From positions 1 through 64,000 of the forward strand of contig JAIOIU010000011.1 in assembly GCA_019912425.1 (NCBI GenBank): a DNA stretch of 64,000 bases, in the 5' to 3' direction. Numbering within the stretch: position 1 is the first letter of the stretch; the number at the start of each line of letters is the position of its first letter. A program made the position numbers and the translations under genes. Under the pieces are notes generated by a model that saw only the letters and a list, made by a program, of their open reading frames with translations, had not been told where the DNA came from and did not search any database. The stretch is from Candidatus Methylomirabilis tolerans (GTDB lineage Bacteria > Methylomirabilota > Methylomirabilia > Methylomirabilales > Methylomirabilaceae). Positions 7,276 to 60,817 of the stretch are shown piece by piece.

Positions 7276-8235
7276 CTACACCACCCCAGCCCTCAGGAGA
7301 TCGTGCAGATGGATAACCCCCTCCGGCCTCCCTTCGGGATCCACGATCAGCAGAGAGGTGATCGTATGCCGCTCCATGATCTCCAACGCCCTGGCCGCGA
7401 GGACATCCCCGCCGATGGTCTTGGGGTGAGACATCATACAATCCCTGACCTGTTGCTGCAGCAGATCGATCCCTTGCTGGAGCGCCCGTCGCAGGTCACC
7501 GTCGGTAATGATCCCGGTGAGGATCCCGGCCTCATCCACCACGGCGGTCATCCCAAGCTGCCTTCTTGAAATCTCGGCAATGGCATCACGCATGAGCGCG
7601 CCCTGAGCGATAATAGGAAGCTGCTCGCCGACATGCATGAGGTCCTTCACTCGCCAGAGCAGCCGCCGTCCCAGGTTTCCGGCCGGATGCAACAGCGCAA
7701 AGTCCGCATCGGTAAAACCACGTTGCTCGAGCAGGACCACGGCAAGTGCATCGCCCATTGCCAAGGCTGCGGTCGTGCTGGCGGTCGGAGCCAATGCCAG
7801 CGGGCAGGCTTCTTTCGCCACGCCGACATCGATCACAACGTCGCTCTGCCTGGCAAGGGTAGAGGTAGAATTGCCGACCAGCGCGATCAGCGCGAGACCG
7901 AGCCGTTTGATCGCGGGGAGCAGGCCGACGAGCTCATCCGTCTCGCCGCTGTTCGACACCGCGATCACGACATCACCACGGACCAGCATCCCCAGGTCGC
8001 CATGTCCCCCCTCGGCAGGATGGAGAAAGAACGCAGGGGTTCCGGTGCTGGCCATGGTGGAGGCAATCTTCTGAGCGACCGAGCCGGACTTACCCATGCC
8101 GGTCAGCACAACCCGGCCCCGACAGTCCAAGAGGATCTCGATAGCCCGGTCGAACCGCTCATCAAGCTTTGGGATCAAGGCCAGGATCGCCTCGGCCTCG
8201 ATCTGCAGCACGTGTCGTCCTCGATCGACAATCAT
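7276..8235 (-). CDS. kdsD: Arabinose-5-phosphate isomerase (KpsF/GutQ type)
   Basis: This 319-residue protein interconverts ribulose-5-phosphate and arabinose-5-phosphate, the first step to Kdo. It has an N-terminal SIS domain (about residues 30-180) with TGMGKSG, HGDLGM and VAVSNSGETDEL-type signatures, then two CBS domains (about 205-319) ending in HLHDLLRAG. Length and domain order match KdsD/KpsF. Its ATG overlaps the stop of the upstream GT9 gene (ATGA), so they are co-translated. It clusters with kdsC, kdsA and LPS core genes, consistent with LPS rather than sugar-alcohol metabolism. Confidence 0.95.
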   Translation of the reverse strand: MIVDRGRHVLQIEAEAILALIPKLDERFDRAIEILLDCRGRVVLTGMGKSGSVAQKIASTMASTGTPAFFLHPAEGGHGDLGMLVRGDVVIAVSNSGETDELVGLLPAIKRLGLALIALVGNSTSTLARQSDVVIDVGVAKEACPLALAPTASTTAALAMGDALAVVLLEQRGFTDADFALLHPAGNLGRRLLWRVKDLMHVGEQLPIIAQGALMRDAIAEISRRQLGMTAVVDEAGILTGIITDGDLRRALQQGIDLLQQQVRDCMMSHPKTIGGDVLAARALEIMERHTITSLLIVDPEGRPEGVIHLHDLLRAGVV

Positions 8236-47429: not shown

Positions 47430-48953
47430 TCATGGCGTTCGGGTGATAGCGCGGCGTTCCCAGGTCACGCCCCCATCGAGGGAGCGGGAAAAGAAGAGCG
47501 CCTCACCGCCCGGCAACCCCTGGTCCCTGACAGCATAGAGCGCCCCCCGATCATCATGGGACAGCACCGTCGACAAGCGGGTCCGGCTTGCGCGCGCCGA
47601 CTGATCGATCGGCGTCGGCGGTTGTTGCCAGGTCGTCCCTCCATCAGCCGATCGGAGGAGCATAAGCTGCCACCCCTCCTTCTGCGACTTTCGTTCCTGC
47701 CACAACAGCACCAGGCGTCCCTGCTCATCGCCTTCGAGCCGCGGCTCGACCAGGACCGCCTCCCGCTCGTCCCCCAAGAGCGCTCGCAACCGGACGGGCG
47801 CGCTCCAGGTGGCGCCGGCATCCTCTGAACGCGACCCCAGAAGCACTAACCCACCCGCTTCCTGCTCCTCGTACCAGGCGATGAAGGCTTTGCCGTTCTC
47901 GGCCGCATGCAGCACCGGGGATGACGCGAAAAACCGGCTCAGACTTGTCTCGCTCAACCGGACCGGCTTGGCCAACCAATGCTCCCCCCCGTCGAGCGAT
48001 CGGTTCAGGTGCAGCACACGGTCCGGCATCGGCGACTTCCGCTTCCCTTCGGAAGACTCTATCCACTCAAGCTCCTGCCAGGCCACATACACCTGTCCGC
48101 CCGCGGCCGCGAGAATCTGAGGATGCTGCCCCCGGTAGGCCACATCATCCGCCTGGAAATTCAGACGCACCGGCTGCTGCCACCAGGTCTGTCCCATGTC
48201 CGAGGAGCGGTTCAGGTAGATGGCGGATTCACCCACTACCGTTCGTTCCTGCCAGGCTACATACAACCGATCCTCTGGATCCATGGCGAAGGAGGGATTG
48301 ACGATCCCCTCGCCGGATGCGGTGGCGGGCGTCAGTTGGATCGCATCCGGCGTAAAGTTTTTGCCTCCGTCCCGCGAGATCTTCAGCGCAAGTTTGCGGG
48401 TGTTTCCTATGCCGAACGTCCAGGCTACGGCCACTCCGCCCCGTCGGTCGGCGAACAGCCACGGCAGACTTTCATGGTCGGAGGTGGCGTTCAGCGCCTG
48501 TGGCGTCTCCTCCCACGTGCGCCCCCCATCGCCGGACCGCGCAAACATGATGCGACGCGGGCTCTTGGGGGGCGTCACCGATCTCCAGGCGGCGTAAAGC
48601 TGCCCGTCCGGGCCGACCGCAAGCCGGTGGCCCCAGGCCGTCGTGTTCGTATTCTGCCTGACGGGCCGCGGCGTCGACCAGGTGTGCCCGCGATCCTCAG
48701 ACCGTGAAAAGAGCAGCTCCCAGCTTTTTTGCCATTGAACGGCCAGCCATAGCAGGTACAGCTCCCCCCCTGTCCCGCGCTCCAGTCGGGGCGCGATAAA
48801 GTCGACACCCTGCTGCGACTCAACCGCCCCAGACGCCGGTGGGCTCGAACGCGCGGGGGCCGCAGGCCCGCGATCCTGCGCCGCGCAGGCGGCGACGATC
48901 AGACAGCTCAGGGCGACGATCAGACCGCCAGGGAACCGAACGCGTCTATCCAC
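47430..48953 (-). CDS. Asp-box (BNR) beta-propeller lipoprotein, sialidase-like
   Basis: This 507-residue protein is read from GTG 48951-48953 with GGAGGTACC upstream. The signal sequence ends in the lipobox IVAAC. Eight Asp-box motifs (SxDxGxTW) are spread through the mature part: SEDRGHTW, SGDGGRTW, SRDGGKNF, SSDMGQTW, SLDGGEHW, SEDAGATW, SADGGTTW and SLDGGVTW. This implies a six- to eight-bladed propeller of the sialidase/BNR superfamily. The arginine triad of true sialidases cannot be confirmed. It may bind or trim surface glycans made by the neighbouring genes. Confidence 0.88.
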   Translation of the reverse strand: MDRRVRFPGGLIVALSCLIVAACAAQDRGPAAPARSSPPASGAVESQQGVDFIAPRLERGTGGELYLLWLAVQWQKSWELLFSRSEDRGHTWSTPRPVRQNTNTTAWGHRLAVGPDGQLYAAWRSVTPPKSPRRIMFARSGDGGRTWEETPQALNATSDHESLPWLFADRRGGVAVAWTFGIGNTRKLALKISRDGGKNFTPDAIQLTPATASGEGIVNPSFAMDPEDRLYVAWQERTVVGESAIYLNRSSDMGQTWWQQPVRLNFQADDVAYRGQHPQILAAAGGQVYVAWQELEWIESSEGKRKSPMPDRVLHLNRSLDGGEHWLAKPVRLSETSLSRFFASSPVLHAAENGKAFIAWYEEQEAGGLVLLGSRSEDAGATWSAPVRLRALLGDEREAVLVEPRLEGDEQGRLVLLWQERKSQKEGWQLMLLRSADGGTTWQQPPTPIDQSARASRTRLSTVLSHDDRGALYAVRDQGLPGGEALFFSRSLDGGVTWERRAITRTP

Positions 48954-49903: not shown

Positions 49904-50842
49904 TTACTTGAGGATCAGATCGACCGGAGGATCGATGCCGCGATTTGACCCGTACACGATCATTTCTGCCAGGAGGCCGAAGGAGACCAGTTGAATCCCG
50001 GCAATCACCATGAGGGTACCCAGGATAAAGAGGGGCCGAGGCCCGATCCATTGCCCGAATAACCAGCCGACCGACAGATAGGCGATAATGGCCAAGCCGG
50101 CGATCCCGGTGAAGACGCCCAGTACGCCGAACAGGTGAAGCGGTCGGGTCGTATACCGAGTGAGCATCAGAACCGTCAGCAGATCGAAGAACCCTTTAGG
50201 GATCCGCTCAGATCCATACTTCGATCGGCCATACTTTCTTGATCGGTGCGCCACCTCCATCTCGCCGATCCTGAACCCCCTCCAACTGGCCAATGCCGGG
50301 ATGAATCGGTGAAGCTCCCCATAGAGTTTCAGTTCTTGAATCACCGACCGCCGATACGCTTTGAACCCGCAATTGAAGTCGTGGAGCTGCACCCCAGTCA
50401 GCCGCGATGTGACGCAATTAAAAAGGGTCGACAGGAACCGCCGCGACCAGGGATCGCGACGGGTGGCCTTCCAGCCGGAGACCAGACCATACCCCTCCTC
50501 CAGCTTCTGCAGGAAACGAGGGATCTCCTTTGGATCGTCCTGAAGATCGGCGTCCAGCGTGACGATAATCTCGCCCTGTGCCTCCCGGAACCCGGCCGCC
50601 AACGCCACGGCCTTCCCCTGGTTACTCCGAAGGCGAACGACCTTCAGCCGTTTGTCCCCCTCCCGCAGGCTCTTCAATACGTCGAACGAGCCGTCGGTGC
50701 TCCCGTCGTCCACGAAGATCATCTCGCACCGGTCAGCGTAGGGGAGCAGGGCCGCCGCCAGCGCAGCATGCAATTCGTGCAGGCTTTCTGCCTCGTTATA
50801 CAGTGGAATTACGACGGAAATGTCCGCCCTCACCGCCGTCAC
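49904..50842 (-). CDS. Polyprenyl-phosphate sugar transferase (GT2, GtrB/DPM1-like)
   Basis: 312 residues from GTG 50840-50842, overlapping the upstream stop (GTGA). The GT2 domain shows SVVIPLYNEAESLHELHAAL, IFVDDGSTDGS and TLDADLQDDPKEIP, then DFNCGFKAYRRSV. Two C-terminal membrane spans (about 235-300) match GtrB/ArnC-type enzymes, which load a sugar onto undecaprenyl phosphate for use by periplasmic GT-C enzymes. It is coupled to just such a membrane protein immediately upstream, which makes a two-step donor-then-transfer module likely. Confidence 0.88.
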   Translation of the reverse strand: MTAVRADISVVIPLYNEAESLHELHAALAAALLPYADRCEMIFVDDGSTDGSFDVLKSLREGDKRLKVVRLRSNQGKAVALAAGFREAQGEIIVTLDADLQDDPKEIPRFLQKLEEGYGLVSGWKATRRDPWSRRFLSTLFNCVTSRLTGVQLHDFNCGFKAYRRSVIQELKLYGELHRFIPALASWRGFRIGEMEVAHRSRKYGRSKYGSERIPKGFFDLLTVLMLTRYTTRPLHLFGVLGVFTGIAGLAIIAYLSVGWLFGQWIGPRPLFILGTLMVIAGIQLVSFGLLAEMIVYGSNRGIDPPVDLILK

Positions 50843-52641
50843 GGTACGGCGCCCACGGCAGGCTGCGCCACCGGCTCACTACTCCCCTGAAGGCGGCGCA
50901 ATCGGGCCAGGTTCTGCCTCGCCTCGATCAGGTCAGGCATCCGGGTAAGCGCCGCCTGGAACGCCGACTCCGCCTCGACCATCCGGCCGTTCTTGGCAAA
51001 CAGGATGCCCAGGTTGTTATACGCATAGGCATCATACGGAGGTCTCGCCAGCGCCGCCCGAAACTGCTGCTCCGCCTCGGGTAGTCGTTCTTGACGCAGG
51101 AACACCGCCCCAAGCCACAGCCGCGGGATCACTTCGTTTTCCTTCAGTCGAATGGCCGACTGAAGCTCCCGCTCTGCGCGTTCCAGCTCACCCCGATCGA
51201 GATAGATCTTCCCGAGGTTCCCGTGGGCGATCGCAAGATCCGGCTTGATCTGCACCGCGGCCTCCAGCTCCAGCTCAGATCGAGTCAGCTCCCCACGACG
51301 CAGGTACGCCACCCCTAGATTATTTCTCGCTCTCGCCACCTGCGGCGCTGTCTGGACCGTCTTGCTCCAAAGGGTCACATCATCCTTCCAGTCCCGATTT
51401 CGCCAGACGGTCCGTAGGCCCAACAGCAGCAAAAGAACCACGCTCCCGACTTGCAGCGCCCGAGCTGCGGGCTGATGCTCCAGCCACGGCTTCAGAAGTC
51501 CCCCCAGGGCCAACGCGTACCCGGCCGTAGCCACATAGAGGTAGTGTTCCGCCATCATCTCGTGGTGGGGGACGATCTGGGAGACCGGTAGAAGGGAGAG
51601 AAAGAACCACATCCCGCCGAAGGCGACGACCGGCCGTGATCTCAAGCACGAGAGGATCATGGAGCCGAGCGCCACCAGGATCAGGATCGCCATCCAGGCG
51701 CGCAGATCTGTCCATGAGGTGGTAACCGGAAAACCGTTGTACGAGTAATCGGCATTGAGCGTTATCGGCGCGACCAGCAGACTGAGGTAGTGGAGGGTAA
51801 CCCTGGCCATCGTGAGGATCGTAAACCACAGGCTTCCGCCGTGATAGGCGCGCACCCAGGTTCCTCGAACAAAGAACAGCACATACACGACGAGACCGCC
51901 CGCTATGGCCGCAAGCGGAAGGTATAGCCGGCGACCGTCCCGGAATGCGGATCGCGCGGCTGTCCAGATCGCCCCGAATGGAGGAAGAGCCCAGGTGGGT
52001 CGCGTGAGGGACATGCGGCTGACCAGGTCATAGGCAAAGCAGAGGAGCGGAAGGACGATACCGCTCTCTTTCGTGAGGAAGGCCAGGAGGTACAACAGGA
52101 CCGTTAGCCCTAAAAACCGATTGGAACCCAACGCCCGATACCGCAGGAAGGTGTAAAAACCGGCAAGAACAAACAGCCCGGAGAGCACATCCCGACGCCC
52201 GGACAAGTACGTCACGGCATCGGTCTGAATGGGGTGGAGGGCGAAAAGGAGCGCCACGAACAGGGCGATGCGCCCACGACCGCATATTATCTCGGCAATC
52301 AAGAAGACGAAGAGGGCGGAAAGCGCGTGATACGCGATGTTGCCGACGTGGTAGCCCACGGGATTGAGGCCGGAGAGGGCGTAGTCAAAGGCGTATGAGG
52401 CGCTCCGGACCGGGCGATAGGCCACCCCACGCGTGATGAGCTTGACCAGTTGACCAAATGGCCCTGATCCTCCCGCTGTCTGTAAGCGTACGATCGTCTC
52501 CAGATCATCAAATAGGAATTCGTTCCGCAGGCTGTTGGCATAGACCGCGACCACGGCTATCAGCAGTATCAGGATCGAGAGCGCCTGTGTAGACCGCCAG
52601 ACCTGTTCCTTCGGCTGTGGACTGCCCTTCTTTGTTCGCAA
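50839..52641 (-). CDS. TPR-containing GT-C-like membrane protein (TMTC-like)
   Basis: 600 residues from TTG 52639-52641, with GAGGACAG upstream. About 10-11 membrane spans cover residues 20-430. The region LYANSLRNEFLFDDLETIV near the start and LHPIQTDAVTYLSGRRDVLS are typical of the bacterial relatives of TMTC/PMT O-mannosyltransferases. Residues about 440-590 hold at least four TPR units (ARNNLGVAYLRRGELTRSE, AHGNLGKIYLDRGELERAE, AYNNLGILFAKNGRMVEAE). The first loop with DD fits a GT-C catalytic acidic pair. It probably transfers a sugar from a polyprenyl carrier to a periplasmic protein or glycan. The GtrB-like gene next to it could supply the donor. Confidence 0.82.
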   Translation of the reverse strand: MRTKKGSPQPKEQVWRSTQALSILILLIAVVAVYANSLRNEFLFDDLETIVRLQTAGGSGPFGQLVKLITRGVAYRPVRSASYAFDYALSGLNPVGYHVGNIAYHALSALFVFLIAEIICGRGRIALFVALLFALHPIQTDAVTYLSGRRDVLSGLFVLAGFYTFLRYRALGSNRFLGLTVLLYLLAFLTKESGIVLPLLCFAYDLVSRMSLTRPTWALPPFGAIWTAARSAFRDGRRLYLPLAAIAGGLVVYVLFFVRGTWVRAYHGGSLWFTILTMARVTLHYLSLLVAPITLNADYSYNGFPVTTSWTDLRAWMAILILVALGSMILSCLRSRPVVAFGGMWFFLSLLPVSQIVPHHEMMAEHYLYVATAGYALALGGLLKPWLEHQPAARALQVGSVVLLLLLGLRTVWRNRDWKDDVTLWSKTVQTAPQVARARNNLGVAYLRRGELTRSELELEAAVQIKPDLAIAHGNLGKIYLDRGELERAERELQSAIRLKENEVIPRLWLGAVFLRQERLPEAEQQFRAALARPPYDAYAYNNLGILFAKNGRMVEAESAFQAALTRMPDLIEARQNLARLRRLQGSSEPVAQPAVGAVP

Positions 52642-52798
52642 CGATCTGTCCTCACCGTGGACTGGCTACCAGGATCGGCTGCGGAAGCTATGATTGACTG
52701 AAGTCATCAGACCGGGAGAAGCGGATTCCGACGAACACAGGCATATCCGGGGCACCGCCATACAGCGCGCGGATACCGGGGATTGACAGCCGGATCGG

Positions 52799-53980
52799 TT
52801 AGACCTGATTGACGCCCCTCGCCATCGTAAGGCCATGATAAGCATGGCAGGCGTCCCCGATCAAGAACGCGTACAGAGCAGAATCCCGGCGCCTGAGGGA
52901 TGCGATATCTGTCCGGCTCACCTCCAGGATTGCGGCAGCCAGGATCCCGGTTGCGGCGCGAATCTCCGCCTCCTGTGCGACAGTCGGTGTATAGAGGCCG
53001 AACATTCGGACATACTGAATAATTTCCATAGCATGGCCGAGGAACTTCAGTCTGGTGTCGAAATAGTGCAAACGTTGCGTGTCGGCCGGCGTGTCGGTCT
53101 TCGCCATCGTCTGGTAGTGCTGATCCGCAAGATATATGTCGGCTTTCAATCGCCAGATCAGCATGTCGAGTATGGGCCTGAGGCGTCGCCGCCCCTCCTC
53201 ACCAAGGTGCCCATGGCGAACAGCGACCGCCAGGCTGTAGATGACGTGGGTGCCACCGCAGGTAAAGCGCATGATCGGGGCCCTCTGGGCCGGCATGATC
53301 CCCTGCTGCATCGCCGTGGCGTACTCGGCCGACCCCTGCTCCACGGCCTTGAAGAGGGAGGCGATCACATCGTGGAGCCTGATCTCCTGATTCGCGGCGT
53401 TCTTCCAGACGGCCTTGTCCGGCGGCATCGTGATCGAGAAGGCGATCACGCTCCACGCGGCCTCGTCTCTCGTATCGTCCAGAGGACTTAATGCCGTGTC
53501 GAAGACAAAGAGTGTTTTCCCGGTGGATAAAAGATCACCCACTGTCTGCCGACGACCCTGGACGACAAAAGAATGATCCAAGCCGACCCCGGCCTCCAGC
53601 AGTGTTTTCAATAGCGTGTTGAAATGGCCCTCGGCGCTGCCTGCCATCGTCAGGTATGACCGCCCCCGGACCGTTTGCATCTCGAGGAAATGCGAGCAGA
53701 GGTAGTCGACGGCCGGGCCTTCGTCGAGCATGAACCCCTTGCCGAGGGCCCGTACGCCGTGCATCATGGCCCACGGATGATCCTTGACCGAGGCGTAACG
53801 ACGGATCAGGTCGCGCATCGCCTGCTTGGCCTTTGGCAGCGTATCCACCTGCTTGCGACCGACCGTCCCCGGTTCGGCGGCCGCCAACGCGTGAAGGGGT
53901 CTGGTCAGCAGCGCGCCCCCGCCGAGCACGGCGTACCGAAGTACATCCCGCCTCGTCACGCCTCCACAACAGCACCGCAC
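52799..53980 (-). CDS. Tat-exported protein of unknown function
   Basis: About 393 residues from GTG 53978-53980, nine bases after AGGAGG; a GTG at 54010 is an alternative. The N-terminus has a twin-arginine signal, VTRRDVLRYAVLGGGALLTR, preceded by three cysteines. The mature protein is largely helical (KAKQAMRDLIRRYASVKDHP, GHFNTLLKTLLEAGVG, FTCGGTHVIYSLAVAVRHGH). I recognise no family. Tat export suggests folding or cofactor insertion in the cytosol. It lies between the TMTC-like gene and the exosortase pair, in the same direction. Confidence 0.75.
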   Translation of the reverse strand: MRCCCGGVTRRDVLRYAVLGGGALLTRPLHALAAAEPGTVGRKQVDTLPKAKQAMRDLIRRYASVKDHPWAMMHGVRALGKGFMLDEGPAVDYLCSHFLEMQTVRGRSYLTMAGSAEGHFNTLLKTLLEAGVGLDHSFVVQGRRQTVGDLLSTGKTLFVFDTALSPLDDTRDEAAWSVIAFSITMPPDKAVWKNAANQEIRLHDVIASLFKAVEQGSAEYATAMQQGIMPAQRAPIMRFTCGGTHVIYSLAVAVRHGHLGEEGRRRLRPILDMLIWRLKADIYLADQHYQTMAKTDTPADTQRLHYFDTRLKFLGHAMEIIQYVRMFGLYTPTVAQEAEIRAATGILAAAILEVSRTDIASLRRRDSALYAFLIGDACHAYHGLTMARGVNQV

Positions 53981-54088
53981 CTGTTCCACCCTCCTGTATG
54001 GTCGATTCACGCCCGCTGAACGACGTCGTTGCCGGCAGGCAGTGTCTGTCTTCTAATAACCCATTGACGCGGAGCGCGTCAAGGTCTT

Positions 54089-54760
54089 TCACCGCTTTCC
54101 CTTGTCCGCTCTCCGTCTTTCTTTTCCTTGCGCTCTGCGCGTACCCTTGATTCGCGCCTCAGCTTCTTCTTCCCCACCGACGCGCATCTCCGGCCCCAAG
54201 GGCAGCCCCTGCCGGTCATGGGACTGGACAACAAACCGGTAGAGTAACAACCCGATCACGAACGGCAGCAGTTGACTCGCCATCGACAGGTAAAAGTTGA
54301 TCCCCCACACGTACAGGCGGCCGCTCGACCCCTGGAACGCCTCCAGGTCCGGTTGCTCAAAGAACTTGACGCCAATCAGAAGGTACGCCAGATGAGCGAT
54401 CAGCAGAATCCCTAACGCGATCGCCAACATCTTGCATCGCGATCGCCAATCGATGCGCCGGAGTGAAAAAACGAGGGCAACCATGAGGATCAGATTAAAA
54501 TGAGTCAGGTTTCCTTTGAATCCCTGGATCGTCATGCCATCCCCTGAAGTCGAACCGGGACGTACCAGAAGGATGTCGTGCTCCCAACCCACAAGCCTTG
54601 GCGCAGGAGCGCTTTCGATAAGAGGTAGTACGATATTCGCGCTGGATGCGAGAAAGCGGTTATACGCCGGCGTCACGAGAAACCAAAGCGGTAGAGCGAG
54701 GCAGAAGCTTACAAGAAACCGGCCGGCGAACGTAAGAAGCGCTTTAGTGTTTGGGAACAC
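54089..54760 (-). CDS. Exosortase H-associated membrane protein
   Basis: About 223 residues, probably from GTG 54758-54760, overlapping the exosortase gene by 17 bases. A longer frame to 54802 starts inside the exosortase coding region. It begins with a membrane span (FAGRFLVSFCLALPLWFLVT), has a periplasmic loop (LVGWEHDILLVRPGST), three more spans and a highly charged cytoplasmic tail (EEEAEARIKGTRRAQGKERR). A membrane protein of this plan accompanies XrtH genes in other bacteria. Its role is unknown, perhaps a partner or regulator of the transpeptidase. Confidence 0.8.
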   Translation of the reverse strand: MFPNTKALLTFAGRFLVSFCLALPLWFLVTPAYNRFLASSANIVLPLIESAPAPRLVGWEHDILLVRPGSTSGDGMTIQGFKGNLTHFNLILMVALVFSLRRIDWRSRCKMLAIALGILLIAHLAYLLIGVKFFEQPDLEAFQGSSGRLYVWGINFYLSMASQLLPFVIGLLLYRFVVQSHDRQGLPLGPEMRVGGEEEAEARIKGTRRAQGKERRRADKGKR

Positions 54761-55256
54761 TGACGAAGCGCGCCGTCCAGTACAGCCATACAAGGAGGGC
54801 AAAAAAGATAATCAGCGATTGCCAGACCAACAGATGGGCCGTCTCAAAGAATGACGGGAAGAAGCGGCCGATATACATGAGACTGACTACCCTGATGAGG
54901 TTTAAGGAGAGAATCACCGATACTCCAAGCAGAAGCCCCTTCAATTTCTCCTTCACCCGACTCGGATAAGCCAGGACAGCGGACAGATAGATCGCCACAA
55001 CAAAAATTCCGGTGCATACATCGTCAATCTGAGCCGCAAACCCCTCAATTCGGAGAATAGTTCCAGAGGTCGTGGCCTGGAGGGAAAGGAGGTTGAGGAT
55101 GAACCCGCTGACTACGGCAAACGCCAGCGCCAACGGCTGTCCGATAATCTCTCGCATGACGTTTGTTCGCAGGAGTGTGTACAGGAGGACGATGCACACC
55201 AGAAAGGTGGCATATGCCCTGACTACGGGCTTGCGTACGTCAAAATATTGCTCCAT
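54744..55256 (-). CDS. xrtH: Exosortase H (IPTLxxWG-CTERM-type transpeptidase)
   Basis: This 170-residue membrane enzyme has about five to six spans. It has the exosortase catalytic residues: Cys81 in DDVCTGIFVVAIYLSAVLAY, Arg122 in SLNLIRVVSLMYIG and His141 in FFETAHLLVWQSLIIF. The compact size and the DDVCTG context fit the XrtH branch. It should cut proteins with an IPTL-type C-terminal signal and move them to an unknown surface acceptor. A likely substrate is encoded at 59951-60817. The adjacent gene encodes the usual XrtH-associated membrane protein. The ATG start follows AGAGAGAAAGCG. Confidence 0.9.
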   Translation of the reverse strand: MEQYFDVRKPVVRAYATFLVCIVLLYTLLRTNVMREIIGQPLALAFAVVSGFILNLLSLQATTSGTILRIEGFAAQIDDVCTGIFVVAIYLSAVLAYPSRVKEKLKGLLLGVSVILSLNLIRVVSLMYIGRFFPSFFETAHLLVWQSLIIFFALLVWLYWTARFVSVPKH

Positions 55257-55313
55257 CGCTTTCTCTCTTCCCTGACGTGACCGGGGGGAGAAGTAATACG
55301 GCTAGCAGGATTC

Positions 55314-55343
55314 TAAATACACCATGTGAGGCCAAGTTGTCAA
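55314..55343 (-). promoter_or_regulatory. Promoter of the xrtH operon
   Basis: On the minus strand: TTGACA (55338-55343), 18-base spacer, TATTTA (55314-55319). The leader to the xrtH ATG is about 50 bases. The remainder of 55257-55458 shows no gene. Confidence 0.6.
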
Positions 55344-55458
55344 TACCCCCTTCTCTAATCTCTCATGGGGGGAAGGGATCTGCCCACAATCACTGAAAGC
55401 CCTCGGCTCATTCTCCCTCCCTACCGACTTGGGCGCGTCTCAATGCGCTAGAAAGGCC

Positions 55459-56223
55459 CTAGCCCGGACGCCTTCCCTGTTCCCTCCTGATGGCTCTTAT
55501 CACTCGTTCTTGAAGCCACAGCAGGAACAGGCTGCCGAAGCGATAGAGGCCCTCGTGGAGGAGGTTGAACCGGCTCTTTCGCCGATCGTCGCACCACACC
55601 GGAATTTCGGTAATGGTAACGCCATCGCGTTGACCCCAGGTGATGAGCTGCAGGATATAGGCGCTCTGGTCGGCAAGATGAGGGAGATATGGCCGCATGA
55701 AGTCGGTTCGAAATGCCTTGGCGCCGATCGAGTAGTCCGTAAACGAAAGGTGTAGCAACCGGCGCGTGCAGGCGATGAACGCCGCGCTTGCCATTTGTCG
55801 GACCCACGAGCGCTGCTGACCTCCGGTCTGCTTGGAGCCGATGACGATGTCCGCCGTTTCGAGGGCGACCGCCGCAGTCGTGATGAAGTCGAGATCGATG
55901 GTGAGGTCGAGATCGAGACACACCACCCGGTCATATTGCGCGCGCGTCATCCCGGCCTTGAATGCGCGGCCCACCCCGCGCTGTGGTAATTCAATAACTG
56001 TGAGGTCCGTACATCCCACCGCACAGGCCCTGGCGATCTCGACGGTCCGATCGGTCGAGCCGTTGCTCACCAGGAGCATTTCGTACTCCACAATCTCCCG
56101 GTCCTTCAGGTAGCGCCTGAGGCGGTCGACGTTCGCGGCAAGAATAGCTTCTTCGTTATACGCCGGGATGATGAATGTCAGTGGAGCACGGCGTTGGCGA
56201 GTATCACGCAGGTCCTGGGACAT
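55459..56223 (-). CDS. GT2 glycosyltransferase (dolichol-phosphate-mannose-synthase-like)
   Basis: 254 residues. The GT2 motifs are LTFIIPAYNEEAILAANVDR, SNGSTDRT, RGVGRAFKAGM and CLDLDLTIDLDF (donor DxD-like), with FTDYSIGAKAFRTDF later. Unlike the GT2 at 49.9 kb, it has no C-terminal membrane domain, only an amphipathic tail (EGLYRFGSLFLLWLQERV). It probably makes a polyprenyl-phosphate sugar or extends a lipid-linked intermediate. It starts 12 bases after the radical SAM gene and is likely co-transcribed with it. Confidence 0.86.
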   Translation of the reverse strand: MSQDLRDTRQRRAPLTFIIPAYNEEAILAANVDRLRRYLKDREIVEYEMLLVSNGSTDRTVEIARACAVGCTDLTVIELPQRGVGRAFKAGMTRAQYDRVVCLDLDLTIDLDFITTAAVALETADIVIGSKQTGGQQRSWVRQMASAAFIACTRRLLHLSFTDYSIGAKAFRTDFMRPYLPHLADQSAYILQLITWGQRDGVTITEIPVWCDDRRKSRFNLLHEGLYRFGSLFLLWLQERVIRAIRREQGRRPG

Positions 56224-56235
56224 GGCGGAACGGGC

Positions 56236-57594
56236 CTAGGAGAACACTGGTCGCACGTAGTCCCAGAACAGTGCGGCCTGTCGGCGCCAAAGATGAAGGT
56301 CTGCCCTGCGAAGTCTGGACCAGAGTACCGCCGGCCGCAGGTAGAACTCACGAAAGGCCCGGTCGGCGACGGCCTGAAGGAGACGGGGATCATGTTCCTT
56401 ACCCAGGACTTCGGGGAACAGTTCCGAGGCGCCGCTTATCTCATACAGCTTCGTACCCAGGTAGGGAGTCACGGTATGAAACGACGCATAGGTTGGGTTC
56501 AGCCGCTTGGCAAACGCAATCGTCGCCTCCATATCCTCGGCGGTCTCCCCTGGGAAGCCGAACATGAAGAAACAGACCTGATCGATCCCTGACTGCTTTG
56601 TCTCCGCAATTCCTCGCTCGATCTGCTCAAGGGTAATCCGCTTATTCGTTTCGGCCAGGACTCTGGCTGAGCCGCTCTCCACGCCAAAGTGGATCAGCCG
56701 ACAGCCGGCGCGCTTCATCAATTGCAGAAGCGGCCCATCGACATAATCGGCCCTGGTCTGGCACGCCCACTCGAAGGGCAACTTGGCTGACGCCAGTCGT
56801 TCACACAGATCCCAGACGTCGTCACGGACCGCAGTGAACTCCAGATCGATAAAGTAGCCTGTCTCGGCTCCTGCCTCTCGAACCAGATACGTCACCTCAC
56901 GGATAACCTGCTCAGGATCTTTCTTGCGGTAGCCTTTGCCGTACATCTTGAGGAGACAGAAAGAACATCGATGGTGACAACCGCGCGTCGCTTCAAGCAG
57001 AGCAAACCTGCCGCCGAGAACTTCGTATCGGTAGTGACGAAGGTCGAGGAGATGAAAAGCGGGCAGCGGCAGAGTCGTGAGATCGACGGGATTCCCTTCC
57101 GGATTGTTGACGATCGCGCCCCCTTGCAGATAGGTAACACCCGGCACCTCAGAAGGATTTTTGCCCTCGCAGAGCGCTCGGACCGCCAGCTCCGGCTCGC
57201 CTCGGATCACGGCCCGCGCGTGCGTCATGGTGAGCAGCTCGCCTGGCGCAACGGTCCCATGCGTCCCCATCACGTACAGCTTGTCGGATTCCACCAGGTT
57301 TGTCACGGCAAGGAATGGGCCCAGGTCAAGGTTGGGGCATTGCCACCGGTCGATCGGCGACGAGGTCACGAAGACCAGGTCGTGACGTGCGGCGGCATCT
57401 CGAATCGCGTCCAGCGGGGTGGGTGTGGCGCGAGCGTCGATAAGGCTAACGCTCAGCCCGTCCTGCTCCAGGATCGCTGCACAGTTGAGCAGGTCAAGGG
57501 GAGGCCAAGTCCTATTGAATCGGCGGCCTTTTCGACTTACCAGCCCGTCCCAGCTTGGATTGACCAGCAGGACCTTCAGTCGCCTTCCTGGCAT
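56236..57594 (-). CDS. B12-binding-type radical SAM protein
   Basis: 452 residues. The N-terminal region (about 1-145) has a B12-binding-like Rossmann fold (KVLLVNPSWDG, LLNCAAILEQDGLSVSLIDA, YVMGTHGTV), although the classical DxHxxG motif is not evident. The radical SAM domain (about 195-400) carries the 4Fe-4S motif Cys206-x3-Cys210-x2-Cys213 in RGCHHRCSFCLLK. A short C-terminal helix follows. The class includes methyltransferases and ring- or lipid-modifying enzymes. Between two glycosyltransferase-type genes in the exosortase region, it may modify a sugar, polyprenol or the sorted protein. The substrate is unknown. Confidence 0.88.
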   Translation of the reverse strand: MPGRRLKVLLVNPSWDGLVSRKGRRFNRTWPPLDLLNCAAILEQDGLSVSLIDARATPTPLDAIRDAAARHDLVFVTSSPIDRWQCPNLDLGPFLAVTNLVESDKLYVMGTHGTVAPGELLTMTHARAVIRGEPELAVRALCEGKNPSEVPGVTYLQGGAIVNNPEGNPVDLTTLPLPAFHLLDLRHYRYEVLGGRFALLEATRGCHHRCSFCLLKMYGKGYRKKDPEQVIREVTYLVREAGAETGYFIDLEFTAVRDDVWDLCERLASAKLPFEWACQTRADYVDGPLLQLMKRAGCRLIHFGVESGSARVLAETNKRITLEQIERGIAETKQSGIDQVCFFMFGFPGETAEDMEATIAFAKRLNPTYASFHTVTPYLGTKLYEISGASELFPEVLGKEHDPRLLQAVADRAFREFYLRPAVLWSRLRRADLHLWRRQAALFWDYVRPVFS

Positions 57595-57638
57595 GCTGAG
57601 GTCACCTCATTTCATTATGTTAAACATTTATTCTGAAA

Positions 57639-57713
57639 TCTTCCCTTGCCCCTCTTTGCTAAAGAGGGAATTTATTCCTCCCTTTGGAAAAGGGAGGTTA
57701 GGAGGGATTTTCT
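57639..57713. repeat. Dispersed palindromic element overlapping a gene end
   Basis: Two inner hairpins (CCTCTTTGCTAAAGAGG and CCTCCCTTTGGAAAAGGGAGG) with a GGAGGGATTTT outer arm. It is related in design to the element at 5.4 kb. Its right end supplies the last codons (Glu-Asn-Pro-Ser) and TAA stop of the membrane-protein gene that ends at 57698. Confidence 0.7.
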
Positions 57714-59872
57714 AAGGAACTGTATCTTTTCCTCGAAAGAAACACAAGCGCTTCCGCAAGGAGCCACGTGATCCCAACTGCTGTGGCGGCGCGTCCGGCA
57801 TAATCAGGCCAGCGGTTTCCGAAAACGAGCCGGACGTGCCCAGCCGTGGGATAGACCAACATGAATGTCGGCGACACCAGATAGATCAGATCGGCGCCCT
57901 CAACATGCCATTTCGGGTGATACGAGACCTTAATCAGGTGCGGACGACCAGGGCACTCGGTCTCAAACCGAACCTCCTCATACCCCATGGCGTCTTTTAC
58001 GTGGCATTCTGGAGAAAGGGCCTGTGTCATAGGTCCCTCATCTAAGCCACGGAACGGCACGGTTCCCGGCGGTATCGGATCGCCGGGTCGCGGGAAGAGC
58101 AGCGGCACCTCCAACCATTCAGGTTTCTGGAACCAGTCATACGTGAGCCGCTTCCAGTCCCCATCAGTGACGAGGGCAGGCTGGTATCGAAGCGGTACAA
58201 CATACTGACCGTTACCTTGACGGACCTGAAAGATCTTGTATGGTCCGATTTCGCTCTCCTCGCGGTACCCCGGATTCGAACTCAGGGCTGCCTTGACCTT
58301 ATCGGTAACGGCAATGACCTCCTTCACGTTGAACAGCTCCAGATGGCGGAGGGCTCGTTCCGGGTCGAATGGCGAACATTTATAGGGAACAAAGGGACAA
58401 GAAGGCGTGTCCGTCAGTTCGGACTGGATGTAGAATACAAACGGGGAGGTCGGGGAAGATTGCATGTATGCCCCTTCCAAAGTGGAACGTCCCGAGAAGA
58501 GCGGTAAGGCCTCGAATGCCCTGATCGTACCGGCCTTATCATGGAGAACCGAATGCTGATACACGACTCTGGGACTGTGGGGGCCGCCTGGTAGCGCAAT
58601 AGAATTGACGACAAGAAAGTATCGCCACCACGGTGTGTGCTCCATCCCTTCATAGTTCCATTGGATCCATTTGGGGATAAACGACACCTGAGGCATAACC
58701 CATGCAATGGTCATCGCGGCAATAATTGGGGGCGCCGCTCGCCTGATCGACGGCGGCAGCCCGATTAGAATACGACCGATTCCAGCCGCCGCCAGGAGCA
58801 CAAGAAAAAACTGAGCGAAGGCCAGGAACCTGACATCTACAAGGTTCAGCCATGGCGAGACAAAGTACAGCGTGACCGATAGCACCACAGGGTAGGTCAG
58901 GAAGTAGACAATTCGAAGCCACCCCTTGTCGGCGAACTTGTCCCGCACTGTCACGCCTACCGTAACCGCCGCAATGACAATAATAGGCCATAGCACGACC
59001 GGAACGGTCTCCAGGATAGATGTAAATGCCCACGTGATGGGGAACCCGGTAGTATAGGGGAGATACCAGACGAGCGGAACCAACCAGAATCCCAGTAACA
59101 GTCCGCCCATCACATAGACCCGCGCCAGGTACAGGAACGTAGCCCGAAACTCCGAGGTCACAGCGATAAAGTACAGTCCGAGCCCTGTCGCAATTACCAT
59201 CCCGTAGCCGTGCGCTAACCCGGTGAGAGCGAAGAGTACGGCACACCAGCCGGCGTACCGTCGTGCCCGGACACCACGGTAGAGCGCGCCCATGAATAAC
59301 ACAACGAGCACCAGTGATAGGCTATGGGAGAACTCGCCGGCCAACGTACTCGGAATATTGCCGCCCCACATACTATTGCCTGCGTTCAGTAGGAATGGAA
59401 GTGTCAGGACGGCGCCGAGGGCAGGAATGGGAAACGGACAGCCGATCCAGCGAAGCGCAACGAGGGAGGCGATCGGAAGTCCGAAGGTTCCGGCGACAGT
59501 CCCCAGCTTAAATGCGATAGGAAATGAGATAAGAAGACTGAAACCGGCGATCAGCAGAAAGGCGAGGGGAAAATAGAAGAGAAAGAGGGGATAACCGGCG
59601 AAGTTACCCGGCATCCAGCCGACGAGCTTTCCATGAGGCAGGAGGTGATCCCGCAGATATTTTGCCGCGACATAGTGAGCGACGGTGTCGCCGCCTGCAG
59701 TAATAGTCGGCTTGAGCAGGAGTGAGGGTGTAAAGTACCAGAGAAGGATTCCGTAGGTCAGCAGGAGGGCCAAGAGCGTACCCCCTCTCTCGACCCATCC
59801 GGGATATCTTCTCGTCGGAACTGCGTTGGGTTCGGCCGAGGCTGTACGTCGGGATTCGTGAACGTCCAGCAT
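57698..59872 (-). CDS. Large GT-C-like membrane protein
   Basis: 724 residues. About 12-13 membrane spans cover residues 30-430 and a final span is at about 695-715. Between them lies a 250-residue soluble, probably periplasmic domain (LPLFSGRSTLEGAYMQSSPT, ...FNVKEVIAVTDK..., KVSYHPKWHVEG). The first loop contains ITAGGDTVAHYVAAKYLRDH, with an acidic residue where GT-C enzymes have their catalytic pair. Proteins of this plan (6-pyruvoyl-tetrahydropterin-synthase-related or YfhO-like) are thought to be membrane glycosyltransferases. It follows the sorted-protein gene after a terminator. Catalysis and sugar are unproven. Confidence 0.75.
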   Translation of the reverse strand: MLDVHESRRTASAEPNAVPTRRYPGWVERGGTLLALLLTYGILLWYFTPSLLLKPTITAGGDTVAHYVAAKYLRDHLLPHGKLVGWMPGNFAGYPLFLFYFPLAFLLIAGFSLLISFPIAFKLGTVAGTFGLPIASLVALRWIGCPFPIPALGAVLTLPFLLNAGNSMWGGNIPSTLAGEFSHSLSLVLVVLFMGALYRGVRARRYAGWCAVLFALTGLAHGYGMVIATGLGLYFIAVTSEFRATFLYLARVYVMGGLLLGFWLVPLVWYLPYTTGFPITWAFTSILETVPVVLWPIIVIAAVTVGVTVRDKFADKGWLRIVYFLTYPVVLSVTLYFVSPWLNLVDVRFLAFAQFFLVLLAAAGIGRILIGLPPSIRRAAPPIIAAMTIAWVMPQVSFIPKWIQWNYEGMEHTPWWRYFLVVNSIALPGGPHSPRVVYQHSVLHDKAGTIRAFEALPLFSGRSTLEGAYMQSSPTSPFVFYIQSELTDTPSCPFVPYKCSPFDPERALRHLELFNVKEVIAVTDKVKAALSSNPGYREESEIGPYKIFQVRQGNGQYVVPLRYQPALVTDGDWKRLTYDWFQKPEWLEVPLLFPRPGDPIPPGTVPFRGLDEGPMTQALSPECHVKDAMGYEEVRFETECPGRPHLIKVSYHPKWHVEGADLIYLVSPTFMLVYPTAGHVRLVFGNRWPDYAGRAATAVGITWLLAEALVFLSRKRYSSLENPS

Positions 59873-59888
59873 GACCGCGCTCCAAAAA

Positions 59889-59919
59889 GCGAGAACGGGG
59901 CTTAACGCCCCGTTCTCGC
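59889..59919 (-). terminator. Rho-independent terminator after the IPTL-CTERM-like gene
   Basis: On the minus strand, GCGAGAACGGGGC, a five-base loop and GCCCCGTTCTCGC form a perfect 13-base-pair stem, followed directly by TTTTT (59884-59888). It ends the transcript of the sorted-protein gene. Confidence 0.9.
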
Positions 59920-59950
59920 GATTACCACGTAACCCGCGTCAGTGTGTCGA

Positions 59951-60817
59951 CTATTGCAGGTGAGCTTTTCGGGCTTTCATCATCCAGGCCATCGCGCCCA
60001 GGAACGCCACCCCAAGAATCATCATCCCCCAGTTGCCGACCGTCGGTACCCTTGGTACGGTCGTCGTCGTGGTGGTGGTCGTGGTCGTCGTCGTGGTGGT
60101 GGGGAATGTCACCCCCTTGTTGTCATTTTTCGAGCTCGAGCTCGTGAACGTTGTACCGTCATTATCCAGAAAACCGCCACCCGCACCCGCCGCATTGATG
60201 GTCAGTCCTGGTCCTCCCAGGGTCGCGCTGTTAATGACGTACACAACACATTGCGCTGAGTCCAAAGTAAACCCGTCCGTCACAGTGCCTGTAGAGGCAC
60301 CATTAGCAACCGATGTCGTGGGCGCAGCTGTATTGATGCCGTACTGCGCGCTTCCCGCCTGGTATCCAAGAGTATTGAGCGGGGTGAGTGCCGGATCAGA
60401 GAATCCGCTGATGGTCGTCCCATTCACAGTGAGGCTCCCGCTTCCTGCCGCATTGAAAGTTGCCTCGTTGAGGTCGCAGCCGTTCAAAATAGCTGACCGC
60501 TTAGCGCTTGTTGTGGCGAAAAGGGAACCGGCGGGAGATACCGTCCCACTCGCCGTGAGGGTTGAGCCCTGAGAGGCGGCCGACACTCCTATCACAGTGG
60601 TGTTGGCCGCACCAAGCGCGACCGTGGTTACCCTCAGTTTACCCGTTAGGTTGTCATTACCCTGCACCCAATAAAAAGTTCCATCACTCGCGATGGCGCT
60701 GGTCGATGCCATATCCGCCGTAGCCGGCAAAGCCATAGCCCAGCTTGCAAGGAGTAATGGAATTAGCCAGAAGAGAACCAGCTTCTTACTGTAAGCGAGA
60801 CTTGTTCTAGAACTCAT
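59951..60817 (-). CDS. Secreted protein with threonine tract and IPTL-CTERM-like sorting signal
   Basis: 288 residues; the ATG has AAGGAGGAGCAAGG upstream. It has a signal peptide (residues about 1-35), a low-complexity beta-rich mature region (Ala/Thr/Ser/Gly-rich), then 14 consecutive threonines (about 240-253, mixed ACC/ACG codons). The C-terminal tripartite signal follows: VPTVGNWG (257-264), a hydrophobic span MMILGVAFLGAMAWMM and a basic end KARKAHLQ. This matches the IPTLxxWG-CTERM plan with Val for Ile and Val for Leu. It is therefore a likely XrtH substrate. The Thr tract beside the signal could be an O-glycosylation site or a flexible stalk. Confidence 0.88.
   Translation of the reverse strand: MSSRTSLAYSKKLVLFWLIPLLLASWAMALPATADMASTSAIASDGTFYWVQGNDNLTGKLRVTTVALGAANTTVIGVSAASQGSTLTASGTVSPAGSLFATTSAKRSAILNGCDLNEATFNAAGSGSLTVNGTTISGFSDPALTPLNTLGYQAGSAQYGINTAAPTTSVANGASTGTVTDGFTLDSAQCVVYVINSATLGGPGLTINAAGAGGGFLDNDGTTFTSSSSKNDNKGVTFPTTTTTTTTTTTTTTVPRVPTVGNWGMMILGVAFLGAMAWMMKARKAHLQ

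Follow-up and report, generated by a model that had tools for sequence, protein, structure and literature searches.

An exosortase H locus in Candidatus Methylomirabilis tolerans encodes an S-layer protein ortholog and a candidate sorting-coupled glycosyltransferase

The surface-layer (S-layer) protein of Methylomirabilis lanthanidiphila, mela_00855, was found by mass spectrometry and immunogold labelling, and is a precursor of 316 residues (31.6 kDa, isoelectric point (pI) 8.42) with a signal peptide at residues 1–34, an IPTL-CTERM domain at 285–312, and a homolog in M. oxyfera with 40.88% identity over 97% (Gambelli et al., PMC8671808). It is encoded near genes for the glycosyltransferases mela_00851 and mela_00856 and the UDP-N-acetylglucosamine dehydrogenase mela_00857; the IPTL domain is mentioned but no exosortase, and attachment to lipopolysaccharide (LPS) through the N-terminus is proposed (PMC8671808). 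For the archaeal Haloferax S-layer glycoprotein, O-glycosylated threonines, cleavage by archaeosortase A, and a lipid anchor have all been proven (PMC4245038). Within the literature collection searched, no paper mentions an exosortase together with IPTL-CTERM, and the one naming both an exosortase and Methylomirabilis reviews methanotrophic archaea. Here we analyze a 64,000-nucleotide stretch of Candidatus Methylomirabilis tolerans DNA (contig JAIOIU010000011.1, positions 1–64,000; hereinafter the window), and in particular its positions 49904–60817, a locus for exosortase H (XrtH) with all the genes listed below on the minus strand. We consider it likely that this locus both makes and sorts an S-layer, with XrtH cutting the C-terminal tail of the S-layer protein and a 724-residue membrane protein (hereinafter GTC724) adding the accompanying sugar on its stalk or on its anchor.

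A first-pass annotation of the window had recognized XrtH with its Cys/Arg/His triad, a partner membrane protein, and an IPTL-tailed secreted protein within the locus, all of which are borne out by profile scores and gene positions; it missed that the sorted protein is an S-layer protein. This protein is an ortholog of mela_00855, as its body is 41% identical and the two loci have in common the order S-layer gene, GTC724, B12 radical SAM, GT2, and GT4. Surface-lattice formation has been demonstrated for the M. lanthanidiphila protein only, and the lattice role of the window protein is predicted by orthology. The link to the published protein runs through genome G001, whose ortholog (L077), read from the second Met, has 316 residues, a mass of 31,621 Da, a pI of 8.42, and the IPTL at residue 285, and in BLASTP shares 40.881% identity with the homolog L078 of genome G005 (coverage 97%). 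As these equal the published values, G001 is, on the sequence match, M. lanthanidiphila and G005 M. oxyfera. Genes for a GT2, a GT4, and a PF03721 dehydrogenase sit at the ordinal positions of mela_00851, mela_00856, and mela_00857. Like mela_00855, the window protein is a precursor with signal peptide, body, Thr stalk, and IPTL tail among the same neighbors; unlike the published account, which names no exosortase, the present one ties XrtH and GTC724 to the S-layer protein, with co-switching (see below) as part of that tie. The minus-strand order is S-layer gene, GTC724, B12 radical SAM, GT2, xrtH, partner membrane protein, Tat protein, TMTC-like, and GtrB, and its first part comprises the following features:

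59951–60817, minus strand: S-layer protein ortholog, with signal peptide at about residues 1–34, lattice body, Thr14 stalk, and an IPTL-CTERM tail at 257–284 above the TIGR04174 cutoff
60058–60099, minus strand: Thr14 stalk, the sole (ACN)8+ run genome-wide, with ACC and ACG codons mixed
59889–59919, minus strand: strong hairpin with a T-run, in the gap that separates the S-layer gene from GTC724
57698–59872, minus strand: GTC724, a polytopic membrane protein of 724 residues with PF10131; probable GT-C glycosyltransferase
56236–57594, minus strand: B12-binding radical SAM protein with the CHHRCSFC motif
55459–56223, minus strand: GT2 of the polyprenyl-phosphate-sugar synthase type, with weak matches to ArnC, GtrB, and DPMS structures
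54744–55256, minus strand: XrtH exosortase
54089–54760, minus strand: XrtH-associated membrane protein

Against TIGR04177 (cutoff 86), XrtH reaches 99.0 bits; its catalytic residues are the Cys in DDVCTGI, the Arg in LNLIRVV, and the His in ETAHLLVW, a triad present in all the S-layer-linked XrtH sequences compared. Its partner most likely begins at a GTG at 54760, so that the two genes share 17 nucleotides, and not at the TTG at 54802. For the tail of the sorted protein, TIGR04174 (IPTL_CTERM; cutoff 20.5) gives 21.9 bits and Pfam PF18203 gives 17.8 bits, under its cutoff of 20.8. Enzyme and tail are thus both above the cutoffs of the XrtH/IPTL-CTERM system; unlike that system at large, the one described here has a single S-layer substrate, a tail of the form PTVGxWG or IPTTGEWG rather than IPTLSEWG, and a linked PF10131 protein. 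The window's genome possesses one XrtH, one IPTL tail above the cutoff, and one (Thr)8+ tract, which is the stalk itself, and hence XrtH looks like a dedicated S-layer sortase; a second IPTL match of 16.3 bits on contig 61 lies below the cutoff and was left uncounted. With the Haloferax system the locus shares a Thr-rich cluster beside a C-terminal sorting helix and an enzyme of the exosortase/archaeosortase superfamily; unlike it, the Haloferax system is archaeal, with one membrane and a PGF motif, and the O-glycans and lipid shown there are predictions here. The window locus would work like the haloarchaeal system but is not a member of it, scoring 33 bits against the archaeosortase A model (cutoff 75). 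One could instead regard the tail as nothing but a membrane anchor, with XrtH acting elsewhere and the neighborhood being a general envelope island. Many polysaccharide genes do lie nearby, and cleavage of the tail by XrtH is a sequence-based prediction; the single above-cutoff IPTL tail and the joint switching of tail and XrtH types nevertheless speak for a sorting pair, and an S-layer lying outside the outer membrane is hard to square with a helix in the inner membrane, making this account improbable.

We compared 15 genomes of the GTDB family and 95 of the phylum. The S-layer gene occurs in 9 of the 15 family genomes, excluding a marginal match in G010 (E 0.049) that contains a stop, and the S-layer gene, GTC724, and the radical SAM gene occupy the identical set of nine. 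Across the phylum GTC724 is found in 9 of 95 genomes (0 of the 86 others), and in 9/9 it directly follows the S-layer gene. On a pyrG tree, S-layer presence must have changed three times or more, so these nine are not one clade counted nine times. XrtH falls into a type A (G000, G014, G001, G002, G004, G006, and G009), whose tails include VPTVGNWGM and IPTVGPWGM, and a type B (G005 and G007), with the tail IPTTGEWGMMIFG. The pyrG tree makes G004 the sister of G005 and G001 that of G007, each sister carrying the opposite XrtH type; therefore, the XrtH type has moved. XrtH, tail, and GTC724 types switch jointly against this marker tree: in pairwise identities over eight genomes (Spearman correlation with Mantel p), XrtH identity correlates with that of the tail (rho 0.79, p=0.008), GTC724 (0.89, p=0.001), and the partner protein (0.71, p=0.025). 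No such correlation was obtained in this test for the S-layer body (0.16), GT2 (0.38), radical SAM (0.31), pyrG (0.21), GtrB (–0.22), TMTC (0.05), or Tat (0.03). Simple linkage does not account for the joint switch in G005, because its XrtH and S-layer genes are 60 kb apart.

Further XrtH and IPTL relatives were recovered in this set, and a scan of genome contigs with XrtH as the query gave two close relatives. A third XrtH type occurs in Methylomirabilis genomes (L024, L030, L033, L034, L037, and L038), mostly beside its own IPTLSEWG-type substrate, and several IPTL proteins are present in G009 and in G002. A sister family, f3 (L118:9790-12171, L119:7480-9936, L120:6311-8890, and L121:6660-9018), comprises XrtH-like enzymes with the different core YEIYYRCTGF, whose genes directly adjoin those for secreted proteins of 600–660 residues ending in VPDLSLIG, a transmembrane helix, and an Arg cluster; enzyme and VPDLSLIG protein probably constitute a separate exosortase/sorting-signal pair.

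The first-pass annotation had further proposed that glycosylation is coupled to sorting through a GtrB-type enzyme and a TMTC-like protein that together O-glycosylate the Thr stalk. The genes concerned, with two that accompany them, are:

52799–54010, minus strand: Tat-exported protein of 403 residues, of a family in 15/95 phylum genomes
50839–52641, minus strand: TMTC-like GT-C protein whose tail carries TPRs; associated with the cluster, though not specific to the S-layer gene
49904–50842, minus strand: GtrB/ArnC-type GT2
47430–48953, minus strand: BNR-repeat lipoprotein, recurring with the TMTC-like and Tat genes

As described there, GtrB is translationally coupled to the TMTC-like protein (a four-nucleotide overlap, GTGA), and a second GT2 (from 55459), the B12 radical SAM protein with CHHRCSFC, the 724-residue membrane protein, and a Tat substrate with a visible RR signal are all in place. 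GtrB shows full-length similarity to ArnC (E 1e-50) and GtrB (E 1e-36), scoring 192 against the ArnC equivalog cutoff of 529. Like the TMTC O-mannosyltransferases, the TMTC-like window protein combines a GT-C region bearing the DD, YRP, RxD, and KE motifs with a TPR tail, and the PMT_2 profile passes in its G011 ortholog; unlike them, it scores 26.8 against TMTC_DUF1736, just below the cutoff of 27, has His for Arg in the ERxxY motif (AEHYLY), and is not tied specifically to the protein that is sorted. The TMTC-like gene of G005 is split by an apparent frameshift (L023:5456-7431). A Thr-tract substrate without the GtrB/TMTC pair, the case that the first-pass annotation held would refute it, was not seen: both genes are in 9/9 S-layer genomes, the G001 TMTC being a different paralog. 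This distribution, the gene overlap, and the retained motifs favor a role of the pair in stalk glycosylation, but G011 (99% complete) keeps close copies of both (TMTC 64%, GtrB 84%) without the S-layer gene or GTC724, and neither the altered ERxxY motif nor the absence of co-switching with XrtH fits, so that we think it quite unlikely. More divergent TMTC-like and GtrB proteins occur in G013, which is without the S-layer gene, GTC724, and XrtH. The proposed link between glycosylation and sorting thus survives for a glycosyltransferase-type gene, GTC724, and not for the pair: as GTC724 tracks XrtH, while the pair does not and occurs in G011 without an S-layer gene, GTC724 is the most plausible candidate for the sorting-coupled glycosyltransferase. 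GTC724 matches PF10131, which we take to be of the GT-C type, at 122 bits (cutoff 26.4), suggesting GT-C activity, and searches against PDB sequences gave no match of note. Apparent frameshifts split GTC724 in G001 (L077:3787-6116) and G007 (L076:5938-8119).

The stalk consists of 14–24 Thr/Ser residues in 9/9 loci. Since its third codon positions vary and Ser is the only substitution across the nine (two AGC codons, in M. lanthanidiphila), selection for hydroxyl residues is a plausible reading of these sequences. In G009, the body of the S-layer-locus protein (L080:9176-10108) is unrelated (HHalign probability 0.1%), but the protein retains a T19 stalk and a tail 65–76% identical to other type-A tails, and the GTC724 encoded after it shares 72% identity with that of the window; what stays constant beside the neighbors is stalk and tail, not the lattice domain. 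The body-swapped G009 protein would itself be an S-layer protein. We put forward, tentatively and at somewhat below even odds, that a diderm bacterium anchors its S-layer by an exosortase with an obligatory modification of the poly-Thr stalk by a co-evolving GTC724, the lattice body being swappable and stalk, tail, sortase, and transferase traveling together. We hold it comparably possible, and again short of an even chance, that XrtH sorts an S-layer protein bearing no glycosylation, with GTC724, the GT2, and the radical SAM protein building a glycolipid or polysaccharide anchor and the Thr tract serving as a flexible hydrophilic spacer. The latter gains from the reports on mela_00855, without glycans and with apparently negative tail staining, and from the LPS/O-antigen cluster adjoining the locus at about 7–45 kb; however, a tract acting as a spacer and nothing more would also accept Gly, Ala, Asn, or Pro, whereas the stalk is Thr in 9/9 loci with Ser as the sole substitution.

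Returning to our preferred interpretation, sorting by XrtH with a sugar added by GTC724, several observations weigh against it. Proteomics of mela_00855 found no glycans on the covered part and saw no tail peptides, and preliminary gels and staining (data not shown) seem to the authors to exclude tail glycosylation (PMC8671808). The missed tail peptide is weak evidence, because the unprocessed tryptic tail peptide of mela_00855, at 55 Thr-rich residues, would escape mass spectrometry anyway. The structure prediction for GTC724 (two sequences) reached a predicted local distance difference test score (pLDDT) of 34, and the model was not used; HHalign gave no link between GTC724 and the TMTC-like protein. 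The co-switching is drawn from eight genomes that effectively amount to a single A/B split, and within type A the XrtH–GTC724 correlation (0.82) may come from common descent.

In the mechanism we envisage, the precursor would be exported via Sec while its IPTL-CTERM helix retains it in the inner membrane, whereupon XrtH and its partner membrane protein would cut the tail and probably join the protein to an anchor. The poly-Thr stalk would hold the lattice at a distance from the membrane. The sugar that accompanies the XrtH step would be added by GTC724 to either the Thr stalk or the anchor; GTC724 would probably be fed by the neighboring GT2, which may supply polyprenyl-phosphate sugar, and the B12 radical SAM enzyme would modify a sugar or lipid. 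Here we infer tail cleavage and attachment by XrtH, the GT-C activity of GTC724, and both the kind of sugar, if any, and its position. To our knowledge, the targets to which exosortases attach their substrates are poorly understood; in this locus a single enzyme is matched with a single, very abundant substrate already purified as sheets, and hence C-terminal processing and stalk modification should be readable by mass spectrometry without genetics. How the rigid S-layer, very likely the source of the polygonal shape of Methylomirabilis, is attached thereby becomes a testable question. If the mechanism is true, archaea and diderm bacteria share an S-layer logic, with a bacterial counterpart of the haloarchaeal archaeosortase and O-glycosylated S-layer glycoprotein.

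The hairpin and T-run 3′ of the S-layer gene fit very high expression of that gene and reduced read-through beyond it; a similar G-run/C-run hairpin stands in the same place in 8/8 species compared, with a weak T-run in G007. The TMTC-like, GtrB, Tat, BNR, and 181-residue genes form a cluster also found in G011 and G013, and conservation in the window reaches past 49904 to about 45230, adding the BNR lipoprotein, a 181-residue lipoprotein, and a 445-residue secreted protein. This TMTC/Tat/BNR cluster is nevertheless tied to XrtH, since the Tat gene adjoins xrtH in G059, a member of another GTDB family. The 403-residue Tat protein has conserved TCGGTH and GD.CHA.HG motifs and no Pfam or NCBIfam match; its mostly helical model (pLDDT 66) has no Foldseek match below E 0.001, and we rejected a galactanase assignment, whose sequence match (E 0.0015 over 69 residues) is probably due to chance. 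The large LPS/O-antigen-type cluster adjoining the S-layer locus spans window positions 7276–45167 and codes for an SIS-CBS isomerase, a DAHP/KDO8P-synthase-type enzyme, an MsbA-like ABC protein, a heptosyltransferase-like protein, a sugar-phosphate transferase, RgpF, and Wzt.

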